A stretch of 64,000 nt of DNA from Aquincola sp. (GTDB taxonomy: Bacteria > Pseudomonadota > Gammaproteobacteria > Burkholderiales > Burkholderiaceae_C): NCBI GenBank assembly GCA_022841885.1, contig JALHQP010000006.1, positions 1 through 64,000 on the forward strand. Direction: 5' to 3'. A model generated the notes under the pieces. That model made no database searches. It saw nothing but the letters and a program-made list of their open reading frames with translations, and was not told the origin of the DNA. Shown here one piece after another: positions 41,852 to 44,616 of the stretch (positions are counted from its first letter, which is position 1; each line of letters opens with the position of its first letter). Both the position numbers and the translations under genes were made by a program.

Positions 41852-41886
41852 TGGAGCGGGTGAAGGGAATCGAACCCTCGTATGAA
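41852..41886 (-). tRNA. tRNA-Gly(CCC) 3' exon, split by a group II intron
   Basis: Read on the minus strand these 35 nt hold half of the anticodon stem (TTC), the variable loop, the T-arm (GAGGG-TTCGATT-CCCTT), the acceptor strand CACCCGC and TCCA. Together with 44578-44616 they make exactly 74 nt, the length of the intact tRNA-Gly(CCC) at 43688-43761. The acceptor GCGGGTG/CACCCGC pairs perfectly between the two exons. Confidence 0.85.
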
Positions 41887-41928
41887 GTCGGGTAGGAAGG
41901 GCACCTCGCGGTGACCCCTCCCCCCTAA
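41887..41928 (-). ncRNA. Group II intron domain VI
   Basis: A G-rich strand (AGGGGGGAGGGGTCACC), the GCGA turn and the complementary GGTGCCCTTCCTACCC form a long helix. The unpaired A in CCTACCC, seven bases from the intron end, is the expected branch point. The structure looks competent for lariat formation. Confidence 0.75.
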
Positions 41929-41962
41929 GAACCGGACGTGCAAGTTTCCTCGCATCCGGCTC
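41929..41962 (-). ncRNA. Group II intron domain V (catalytic)
   Basis: 34 nt with stem GAGCCGGATGC/GCACGTCCGGTTC and a GAGGAAAC-type distal loop. It contains the AGC catalytic triad near the 5' end and the two-base bulge expected of domain V. This is the most conserved part of the intron and shows no damage. Confidence 0.85.
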
Positions 41963-42041
41963 AAGCAGTCTGAAGTCACCCGCCATTTCTGGCAATGGTA
42001 ACCGCTGCAAAGTTTTCGGGGCCTTCGGTCGTGCCCCTGAC

Positions 42042-43670
42042 TCACTCGTTGGCGTGGTGTTGCCGATGACAGTTCGGATGGAGCAGTTGAAGATTGCTCA
42101 TCTGTTCCGACCCGCCTTCCGATCGCTTGACGACGTGGTGGATGTGCCACCCCGTCTCCTTCGTGATCTTCTGGTTGCAGCACGGACACAGTCCTTCCTG
42201 CCAGTACCACAACCACGCCAGCTTCCGGCGGCCCTTCAAGTCCGACTCCATCTTGCGCGCGAGGCGCGTGTCGAAGTAGTCCTCGTCTTCCGGGCTGTAC
42301 GGATTTCGGCTGCCATCGATTTTGGCGTGGGGCTTCTTGCGGAAGCTCACCAGCGTCAACAGCGCCTTGTCCTTCTCCGCGAACCGCCAATCGCGACCCT
42401 TGATGCGCCGGAAATACCGGGCCTTGGTCCACCGCTCCCCTTTGTTAGGGTGGCGACGGCGAGCCCAGCGCCACAGCGCCTGCCAGATCAAATGGTCGGT
42501 CTTCGCGAACGTGCGCGTCGCCATCTGGCTTCGGTGATAGTTGGCCCAGCCCCGTATGATCGGGTTGAGCTTGTCAATCACGTCTTCCTGTCTGGCCGTG
42601 CGCATCTGCCGCAGCGTCCCGCGAATCTTCTCCAGAAAGTTCTTGACGTTCTTCCTGGCTGGTTTCGTCAACAACATGCCGCCTTGCCAGCGGGCCGTCC
42701 ATCCCAGAAAGTCGAAGCCGTCGTCCACGTGGGTGATCAACGTCTTCTTCTCTGAAAGTTCGAGCCCGCGCTCGCGCATGAACTGCTGCACGAGCGGTTT
42801 GATCTTCTCTACCAACAGCTCTCGCGAACTGCTGGTGATGATGAAGTCATCGGCGTAGCGCACGAAGTTGACCTTGGCCGCTCTGGCATCGCGCACCGTG
42901 CGGAAGAGTCCCGCCAGCTTGCTCTGCAGACCGTCCAGTGCCAAGTTCGCTAAGACGGGCGAGATGATCCCGCCCTGCGGTGTCCCGCTCGCTGTCGGGA
43001 AGAGGGCATTGCCCTCGAAGTACCCGGCTTTCAGCCACTTGCGCAACACGCCTTTGTCCATGGGGACGTGGGCGAGCAGCCACTCGTGACTGATGTTGTC
43101 GAAACACCCTTTGATGTCTCCCTCTAGCACCCATTTCGGCGAGTGCTTTCGTCCAAGCGCGTTGCGCACCTGTTCGATTGCATCTGCCGTCGAGCGCCCA
43201 CGGCGGAAGCCGTAGGAGTGAGTGTCGCCGGTCGTCTCGGCTGTCGGGTCGAGCGCCAACAGGTGCAGCGCTTGCATGGCCCGGTCGCGCATGGTCGGGA
43301 TGCCCAGTGGGCGTCGGTCCCCATTTGCTTTCGGGATGTAGACCCGTCGCATCGGCTTCGGCTTGTAGCCCTTGTGTTGCAAGGTGCCGACCGCCTGCCA
43401 CTTGTCGTCCGGAGTACTCCATGTCTGCCGGTCGATCCCCGGGGTCTTGCGACCCTGGTTCTCGGTTACCCGTTTGACCGCCAACGCTTTCGCGCTGATG
43501 GAGCGGGTGAGGAGTCTCTGCAGGCGTTTGACATTGCGCCATTCGCCTGCCTTTGCTGCTTTCGCGATTCTTGCCTGCAGCCTCCCGACCACCTGATGCG
43601 CGTCCTGCCACGGTATGCCGTGCCAATGCGTCCAGTTGGTGGAGGCAACATCGCAATTGCTTGCGTCCAT
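42042..43670 (-). CDS. ltrA: Group II intron-encoded reverse transcriptase/maturase with HNH endonuclease
   Basis: 542 residues. Reverse transcriptase blocks RT1-7 are intact, including RRPLGIPTMRDRAMQ, the catalytic FVRYADDFIIT and GFDFLGW. The maturase (domain X) follows (about 350-430, NPIIRGWANYHR). The C-terminus is an HNH endonuclease with two CxxC-type pairs (LCPCCNQK, LLHPNCHRQH) and HIHHVVKRSEGG. The protein splices and mobilises its intron. The ATG at 43670 follows CGGAGG by five bases and replaces a longer frame that would translate the internal tRNA. Every expected domain is present, so the element may still move. Confidence 0.93.
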   Translation of the reverse strand: MDASNCDVASTNWTHWHGIPWQDAHQVVGRLQARIAKAAKAGEWRNVKRLQRLLTRSISAKALAVKRVTENQGRKTPGIDRQTWSTPDDKWQAVGTLQHKGYKPKPMRRVYIPKANGDRRPLGIPTMRDRAMQALHLLALDPTAETTGDTHSYGFRRGRSTADAIEQVRNALGRKHSPKWVLEGDIKGCFDNISHEWLLAHVPMDKGVLRKWLKAGYFEGNALFPTASGTPQGGIISPVLANLALDGLQSKLAGLFRTVRDARAAKVNFVRYADDFIITSSSRELLVEKIKPLVQQFMRERGLELSEKKTLITHVDDGFDFLGWTARWQGGMLLTKPARKNVKNFLEKIRGTLRQMRTARQEDVIDKLNPIIRGWANYHRSQMATRTFAKTDHLIWQALWRWARRRHPNKGERWTKARYFRRIKGRDWRFAEKDKALLTLVSFRKKPHAKIDGSRNPYSPEDEDYFDTRLARKMESDLKGRRKLAWLWYWQEGLCPCCNQKITKETGWHIHHVVKRSEGGSEQMSNLQLLHPNCHRQHHANE

Positions 43671-43687
43671 ATCAACCTCCGTTGACG

Positions 43688-43761
43688 TGGAGCGGGCGAT
43701 GGGAATCGAACCCACGCTATCTGCTTGGGAAGCAGAAGTTCTGCCATTGAACTACGCCCGC
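43688..43761 (-). tRNA. tRNA-Gly(CCC), complete, inside the group II intron
   Basis: 74 nt ending in an encoded CCA. The acceptor stem GCGGGCG/CGCCCGC, D-arm GTTC/GAAC, anticodon stem TCTGC/GCAGA around the loop TTCCCAA, and T-loop TTCGATT are all intact. The closest remembered relative is E. coli glyU. It sits 17 bases before the reverse transcriptase start, so it must be cut from the intron or intron mRNA by RNase P and 3' nucleases, or have its own promoter; no good -10 box is visible just upstream. Confidence 0.93.
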
Positions 43762-44088
43762 CCGGTCCCGAAGGATGGACAACTGCCCCGAAGGGCATGT
43801 CCCCCTCCGGGATGGGTTGAAGCAGACCTGTCTCGCGACAGGCCACCACACGGAAGTCAGCGCTCTTTCGAGCCGGGGCGATCGTTGCATCCCCTATCCG
43901 GACCGTTACAGCCCGGCGTTCGCTTTCTCCGCGATCCTCTACCCGCAACAGATACGCCTGATTTTACAACCAGACTTGTCACGCCTCGCGGCGCGACTCT
44001 GCTTCGGGCTTACCCTGTTCCGTGCGACGAGCACGAGTCAGGAGGACCCCACCTTTCTGCCGATGATCGTTTTGCCAGCGTGTCCCCA

Positions 44089-44094
44089 CCAAGC
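44089..44094 (-). other. Putative EBS1 of the group II intron
   Basis: On the minus strand GCTTGG lies in the loop of a hairpin formed by TGTCTCC and GGGGACA. It is the perfect complement of CCAAGC, the last six bases of the tRNA 5' exon (IBS1). The same six bases occur in the internal tRNA. Confidence 0.7.
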
Positions 44095-44154
44095 AGGGAG
44101 ACATCCGATCACGTACCGTTTTGGTCGGAGCCTGTCAGTCGATTTGGCTCGCTC

Positions 44155-44160
44155 AAGCTT
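44155..44160. other. Putative EBS2 of the group II intron
   Basis: AAGCTT in domain I can pair with exon positions -8 to -13. The present exon (CAGCTT) pairs at five of six positions; the mismatch is at -13. Confidence 0.5.
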
Positions 44161-44577
44161 GACGGCATTTACCAGTGGTTCACTTACGTTGGTCCTTTGA
44201 CCCAGCCTTGCGCCTCATCCGGATTTCGACTTCCAGAATCACGCGATGACCCTCACGGGCACCACGTACCCGTTGAGGGTGGCTACGTTGTCAGTGCGCT
44301 CGGCACAGGGTCGTTACCAACCCCGCACTGCACCTAGGCTACTGGCGGCTGAACGCCAGGTTGCATGCGGGCTTGCGCCCGAGCAACAACTCATCACACG
44401 GCTTGCGCCGCGTTCACAACCCGACCTCGGTTTAGCCGAGGCCACGACCCGAGGGCCGTACTCCATCAGGCTCTTACCTGACCATGCGATCCGAGGATCG
44501 CAACTCTAGGGCTGCATCTCCCACACTTCGAAGCAGTGTGGCCAGTCACAGCTGACTGGGCGACTCTCAGGTCGCAC

Positions 44578-44616
44578 GCTTGGGAAGCTGCCGTTCTGCC
44601 ATTGAACTACACCCGC
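44578..44616 (-). tRNA. tRNA-Gly(CCC) 5' exon, split by the group II intron
   Basis: 39 nt: acceptor strand GCGGGTG, D-arm GTTC-AATGGCA-GAAC, anticodon stem strand GCAGC, loop TTCCCAA (anticodon CCC) and GC. The intron enters after nucleotide 40 of the standard numbering. If spliced to 41852-41886 the anticodon stem would be GCAGC/GCTTC with a C-U mismatch at 28-42. It lies 47 nt downstream of a sugar isomerase gene on the same strand. Confidence 0.85.

Follow-up and report, generated by a model that had tools for sequence, protein, structure and literature searches.

Mobile group II introns whose proteins combine reverse transcriptase (RT), maturase and HNH endonuclease domains are exemplified by Ll.LtrB. 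In organelles, the trnK gene is interrupted by a group II intron with matK. The mitogenome of C. atmophyticus features 10 group II introns in tRNA genes (PMC8742464), and in fungal mitochondria tRNA genes have been described inside the introns of protein genes, namely atp6 of Ophiostoma minus and cox1-1281 (PMC7902536); the fungal introns with internal tRNAs and the organelle group II introns in tRNA genes are the nearest precedents for the locus considered here. Integrases and islands are known to restore a tRNA 3' end. Engineered systems include the home-and-rescue drive HomeR (PMC7968924) and the Cleave and Rescue elements (PMC7951863). The rescue copy in engineered home-and-rescue drives is made cleavage-resistant. 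The open-licence literature searched (PMC8919778, PMC4853749, PMC10455443, PMC4390854, PMC3978253 and PMC11050817 included) yielded no description of a group II intron with a copy of its interrupted tRNA, subscription journals lying largely outside that search; the initial annotation, which knew of no described group II intron that does this, is upheld within this scope.

The window, meaning the whole 64,000-nucleotide stretch of DNA analysed (Aquincola sp., GCA_022841885.1, contig JALHQP010000006.1), contains such an arrangement in a tRNA-Gly(CCC) gene. The element is considered likely to be a natural home-and-rescue retroelement, in which an intron homes into tRNA-Gly and carries a full replacement of the tRNA it interrupts; expression, splicing and immunity of the replacement to the intron are inferred.

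The split tRNA-Gly(CCC) gene and its intron

The mobile group II intron of the window is 2691 nt long and lies on the minus strand within the anticodon stem of tRNA-Gly(CCC); the host tRNA is cut past base 2 of the 3' anticodon stem, leaving halves of 39 nt and 35 nt (Table 1) that ARAGORN reads as tRNA-Gly(CCC) when joined. An Rfam match to RF02012 (44360-44211, minus strand, 103.9 bits) meets the criterion for group II catalytic domains I-IV, and the branch-point A is probably located at 41893, which is an inference. The RT/maturase scores 376 bits against TIGR04416, for which the cut-off is 300; its YADD motif is intact, the En domain is present and the start codon is the ATG at 43670. The limits of domain IV depend on a base stem that was read by eye and is conserved only loosely among relatives; in the comparison of domain IV flanks the 3' segment was misplaced for L077 as well as L179, and L078 lacked the 5' segment. 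The EBS2 loop also pairs with the target in five introns that carry no tRNA and have other targets (L081, L083, L085, L092, L097), and the EBS3 column of the alignment complements +1 in 20 of 22 introns, the two exceptions being introns with the L100 sequence that occupy other targets.

The orthologous site is empty in two genomes of the same genus (L148 and L151), where an intact tRNA gene stands before the same GGDEF gene and alaS. Compared with the joined exons of the window, this intact tRNA is identical in L151 and one base off in L148; the insertion is therefore precise and the exons are native. Through its domains, RT/maturase, EBS-IBS pairing and precise insertion the element is shown to meet the criteria for a mobile group II intron; splicing, its efficiency and retrohoming are inferred.

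Table 1. Features of the intron and of the tRNA-Gly(CCC) gene that it splits (positions in the window).
Feature	Position	Strand	Basis
5' exon, 5' half of host tRNA-Gly(CCC), GCGGGTG...TTCCCAAGC	44578..44616	-	Equals intact gene at orthologous empty site L151
3' exon, 3' half of host tRNA-Gly(CCC), TTCATACGAGGG...GCTCCA	41852..41886	-	Exon joining and empty-site comparison
Group II intron, GTGCGAC...CCCGAC	41887..44577	-	Ends set by empty-site comparison
EBS2 (AAGCT), complements exon -12 to -8 (AGCTT), 5/5	44156..44160	-	20-intron alignment, by eye
EBS1 (GCTTGG), exact complement of exon -6 to -1 (CCAAGC), 6/6	44089..44094	-	By eye
EBS3 (A), pairs with exon +1 (T)	44055..44055	-	Best among all alignment columns
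Domain IV, via likely base stem GTCTG 43827-43823 / CAGAC 41972-41968	41968..43827	-	By eye
Internal complete tRNA-Gly(CCC), CCA encoded	43688..43761	-	ARAGORN; Rfam tRNA 70.1 bits, E 3e-13
Spacer, 17 nt, between tRNA CCA and RT start; likely ribosome-binding site GGAGG	43671..43687	-	
RT/maturase with HNH endonuclease domain, 542 aa	42042..43670	-	RVT_N, RVT_1, GIIM and HNH domains
Domains V and VI	41887..41964	-	RF00029, 65.6 bits

The internal tRNA is the only tRNA gene that ARAGORN reports in the window; it is called as an ordinary gene and the split gene is overlooked, which serves as a warning for annotation. The internal tRNA is placed in domain IV because it lies directly upstream of the RT frame and between the likely base strands of that domain, with domain V following after the RT. 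The proposal, made from the sequence alone, that a complete tRNA-Gly(CCC) lies in domain IV 17 nt before the RT is confirmed by ARAGORN, Rfam and coordinates; the further claim that the intron breaks a tRNA gene and delivers a working replacement is supported, although the working of the replacement is inferred. The internal copy and the split host tRNA are mismatched at 13 of their 74 positions, -12 and +1 of the target among them; the copy is of another type than the split gene, and standalone genes of other genera match it best (96-97%). The distance from CCA to the RT start codon is 14-17 nt in 18 of 19 loci and 24 nt in L088.

A family of introns with an internal tRNA

The RT was searched for in one genome per species across 84,980 species, and the best 80 of 206 loci were analysed; an intact tRNA-Gly(CCC) is found just upstream of the RT in 15 of these and a truncated one in L072. 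ARAGORN detects no tRNA in the other 64, and a search of these tRNA-less loci for the pattern of a Gly(CCC) half gave none, except one chance match (L138). The genome search of the family found the intron near full length in 7 of 399 genomes, adding G186 and G134, and that of the class was positive in 3 of 369, the window's own genome included, adding G719 and G645; among 11 genomes searched from the family of G645 there were no more carriers. A plasmid search found no place at 80% query coverage, only partial relatives of the RT. With the window included and duplicates across collections taken out, an intact internal tRNA occupies the domain IV site in 21 introns from 20 genomes, in addition to the truncated copy of L072; other introns with a tRNA at this place, which the initial annotation had proposed to look for, have therefore been found. 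The hosts comprise Burkholderiales, Gallionellaceae, Marinobacterium and others; the targets are Gly(CCC) genes for 20 introns and a Gly(UCC) gene for one. Since the same layout of intron and tRNA recurs in 20 genomes, a chance arrangement is excluded.

Conservation across the family is thus shown, as is the grouping of its RTs in one clade: in a tree of 82 RTs, which leaves out L109 as too short, 17 carriers and L072 form a single clade (support 100/99) among tRNA-less introns. A quick RT tree with three added RTs (from G719 and G645), from which L042, L043, L080 and L088 are absent, still recovers one clade. All 19 introns with both exons read interrupt a tRNA-Gly gene at one and the same position. 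The initial annotation was to be considered refuted if related introns at this site lacked the tRNA and the region showed a later unrelated insertion; on this condition the outcome is against refutation, with the RTs forming one clade. A single tRNA capture is the simplest account of the family.

The introns of L042, L070 and L071 exceed that of the window by 177-201 nt; judged by alignment gaps, the added length is located between the RT stop and domain V. The nearest tRNA-less introns (L085, L086, L090 and L091) appear to be positioned at or just past the 3' end of groEL-like genes, as read by eye from the 5' flank. In L072 (L072:1-510) only the last 18 nt of the internal tRNA are left, and they border on foreign DNA where the contig ends; this truncation has the look of island integration into the internal tRNA, which remains a possibility only.

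Joint horizontal spread of intron and tRNA is shown by comparing the window with four other species. In the comparison with G003 the RT genes share 97.7% identity, and four-fold sites are unchanged at 95% in the RT gene, against 69% for GGDEF and 60% for alaS; the corresponding values for RT and GGDEF genes are 93% and 77% against L068, and 94% and 69% against L073. Against L071 (P. defluvii) the intron is not closer, with 71% of four-fold sites unchanged in the intron and 73% in the neighbour. The GGDEF proteins are 77%, 59%, 53% and 47% identical in the pairs of the window with G003, L068, L073 and L071, respectively. The intron is far more alike than its neighbours in three of the four species pairs, which argues for interspecies transfer into the same gene, the tRNA travelling within the intron; the suggestion that the tRNA moves with the intron is supported to the same extent. 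Internal tRNAs have at times been swapped between introns: the window intron shares 94.9% with that of L073 and only 83.8% in the tRNA, while with L043 it shares 72.7% in the intron and 95.9% in the tRNA. Genome G331 features the region twice, without the intron (L155) and with it (L039), the flanks being 94-96% identical, which could represent a strain mixture or a duplication; the intron-free Gly(CCC) copy displays two single-base deletions, which may be sequencing errors.

Identity, recoding and inferred function of the carried tRNA

Wherever both exons were read (19 loci), the intron carries a glycine tRNA whose anticodon is that of the interrupted gene, and this isoacceptor matching includes a change of target in G645. 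One intron of this genome splits Gly(CCC) and carries Gly(CCC). The second, which shares 74.3% identity with it, splits a Gly(UCC) gene flanked by tRNA-Tyr and tRNA-Thr/tRNA-Trp and has Gly(UCC) as its cargo. EBS2 in the UCC intron is AAGGCU, fitting AGCCTT of the UCC gene, instead of the AAGCU that fits AGCTT. When all 42 tRNA hits of G645 were typed, no CCC or UCC gene was found beyond those split or carried, glycine being otherwise represented only by GCC. By the decoding rules, Gly(UCC) should be the sole GGA-reading tRNA in G645. It is probable that the carried tRNA functions in place of the broken one, as the isoacceptor switch is otherwise hard to explain; this function is inferred.

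Recoding of the carried copy at positions contacted by the intron is also shown and, together with the cargo following its target in Gly(UCC), is a new finding beyond the initial annotation. By eye, EBS1 is GCUUGG in the 14 carriers checked, the exact complement of CCAAGC, and EBS2 of L043 is AAGCC. An A at -12 and a T at +1, which pair with one another in the tRNA, are common to all 19 targets for which both exons were read. Of 14 distinct internal tRNAs, 13 are altered within -12 to -1 relative to the target and 11 are without both the -12 A and the +1 T; in 10, the changes within -12 to +1 are confined to -12 and +1. In L079 and L109 a single base pair, formed by -12 (A to G) and +1 (T to C), accounts for the only 2 differences among 74 positions between the internal tRNA and its target; the internal tRNAs of L178 and L179 are altered at -10 and -2 instead. 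Alterations of the internal copies at contact positions are paired changes that preserve the cloverleaf. Five of the 14 types have G in place of A at -12, and a U-G wobble with EBS2 is still possible there. The internal tRNA of L180 (genome G719) retains the whole core target; recoding as an absolute rule is rejected because of this unaltered copy.

Standalone genes have A at -12 in 128 of 140 cases considered in the family and 95 of 106 in the class, both counted by hand; the family set covers only part of the matches and leaves out 10 entries from carrier genomes (12 of 140 without A at -12), and the class set leaves out two entries of G000 (11 of 106 without it). The Fisher values from the comparison of internal and target tRNAs, 2.6e-11 and 3.6e-10, ignore kinship and are considered a rough guide only. 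The carried copy has likely been selected to evade its own intron; both this selection and the immunity of the copy are inferred. The initial annotation had proposed compensation or addiction: compensation receives strong support from isoacceptor matching and recoding, and addiction is not shown, because precise intron loss would restore the native tRNA.

In 11 distinct internal tRNAs, 98.3% of cloverleaf cells are paired; seven pairs have two-sided changes, a number reached by 7 of 500 shuffles, and the covariation score is 0.307 compared with 0.094 for shuffles and at most 0.090 for slid structures. The count of further pair types in the internal tRNAs is not above shuffles, 166 of 500 of which reach it. 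Transcription, processing and charging of the internal tRNA are inferred; a simple promoter scan near the gene gave no match.

Typing of all 39 tRNA hits in the window's draft genome (97.5% complete) revealed no further Gly(CCC). In nine more carrier genomes a Gly gene pattern allowing up to two mismatches, which would miss more divergent genes, found the split and the internal gene, with a Gly(UCC)-like gene in six; G003, G057, G134, G186 and G269 present the same picture, and G331 is the exception among carriers owing to its extra intron-free Gly(CCC) copy. Gly(UCC) can read GGG by wobble, and loss of Gly(CCC) need not kill. The joined exons read as tRNA-Gly in 19 of 19 loci; the split gene has not decayed, and therefore the rescue may be redundant. 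Decay of the host tRNA under cover of the internal copy was considered and rejected, since the C-U mismatch in its anticodon stem is also present in the intact genes at empty sites.

In Duganella CF517 (L109:3001-4633) the RT is frameshifted near residue 155 and both tRNAs are intact. The G003 intron has an IS inserted ~67 nt inside it, with an 8-9 bp target repeat, and its internal tRNA is also intact. The ends of this IS, TGTTGGCGCCGAC and TGTCGGCGCCGA (L033:1-60 and L036:1-55), are located in domain I, the intron being split over two contigs. The IS was rejected as proof of dead splicing because it sits in a part of domain I that is missing from most aligned tRNA-less relatives.

Home-and-rescue reading and comparison with described systems

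The criteria for a home-and-rescue element are met by one specific target gene, a complete copy (21 of 22 introns) and target-site alteration (13 of 14 copies), with expression, function and immunity inferred. Under this reading transcription of the precursor would begin from the promoter of the tRNA gene, and the transcript would contain both tRNAs; host enzymes for 5' and 3' tRNA processing (RNase P and others) are predicted to release the internal tRNA whether or not splicing occurs, and slower ribozyme splicing could rejoin the split host tRNA. The supply of glycine tRNA would be maintained on invasion, under inefficient splicing and after intron death; base-pair swaps at the EBS2/EBS3 (or EBS1) contacts, which leave the fold intact, would prevent insertion into the intron's own rescue gene. 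Excision of the tRNA is predicted to break the intron RNA in domain IV, such that one molecule may provide rescue or retrohoming, not both. A bolder reading, which is considered fairly likely, comprises one tRNA capture, recoding of the captured copy at the bases that the intron's guides recognise, against self-homing, exchange of the cassette between hosts and a switch of cargo with the switch to Gly(UCC).

The internal tRNA could instead be an RNA-processing signal, whose end cuts trim the RT message or shut off full-length intron RNA, decoding being irrelevant. The near-constant spacing between CCA and RT is in favour of this, as is the inference that RNase P would cut a tRNA out of domain IV and split the intron RNA; however, any tRNA would serve such a purpose, yet the carried anticodon matches the interrupted gene in 19 of 19 loci, the UCC switch included, and this explanation is considered unlikely. 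Also unlikely is that the internal tRNA is merely an extra gene copy, where splicing gives enough host tRNA and the differences of the passenger represent lineage drift or acquired alleles. Intact exons in 19 of 19 loci and the exchange of internal tRNAs between introns (the window with L073 and with L043) are consistent with an extra copy; against it, 21 of the 22 introns in the clade have preserved a complete tRNA despite deep divergence, the differences preserve pairing and hit contact positions (exclusively so in L079 and L109), and standalone genes seldom show these differences. A role mainly as a decoy attachment site that spares the split gene from tRNA-targeting integrases, or in priming reverse transcription, is very unlikely: the 18-nt remnant beside foreign DNA in L072 is what island integration would leave, but it is a single ambiguous case, isoacceptor matching and recoding are left unexplained, and group II introns prime via target cleavage.

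The home-and-rescue reading bears on how mobile introns persist in compact, needed RNA genes. Homing with a recoded rescue was devised by designers of gene drives, and evolution seems to have reached the same principle in a bacterial retroelement, whose pairing of guide and target can be read from its sequence. Cultured bacteria make the question testable, namely Piscinibacter sakaiensis 201-F6 (the PET-degrading strain), P. defluvii SH-1, Duganella sp. CF517 and Marinobacterium sediminicola. Internal and spliced Gly(CCC) are distinguishable by 13 positions in P. sakaiensis 201-F6, 10 in P. defluvii SH-1 and 14 in M. sediminicola.

The window family shares with introns of the Ll.LtrB type the ribozyme domains, recognition through EBS1-3/IBS1-3, an RT/maturase/HNH frame in domain IV and precise insertion; unlike these, it carries in domain IV a complete, recoded copy of the tRNA that it interrupts. 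Organelle group II introns in tRNA genes share the interruption of a tRNA gene; in the relevant sections of PMC8742464, these introns are not said to contain a replacement tRNA. Fungal mitochondrial introns likewise have a tRNA inside the intron, but the interrupted gene encodes a protein, such that the tRNA does not duplicate the target, and the introns surveyed are mostly group I (PMC7902536). Integrases that restore tRNAs resemble the family in that a mobile element mends the tRNA gene it has entered; they restore part of the gene via overlapping sequence, whereas the family carries a separate whole gene with the target site altered. The criterion for an integrase element (an integrase gene, insertion at a tRNA 3' end and a direct repeat) is not met, as the element has an RT/maturase and its site is in the anticodon stem. 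With HomeR and the Cleave and Rescue elements the family shares homing into a needed gene and a rescue copy; in contrast to these engineered drives it is natural and bacterial, it is guided by the RNA of the intron ribozyme, and splicing may also restore its target.
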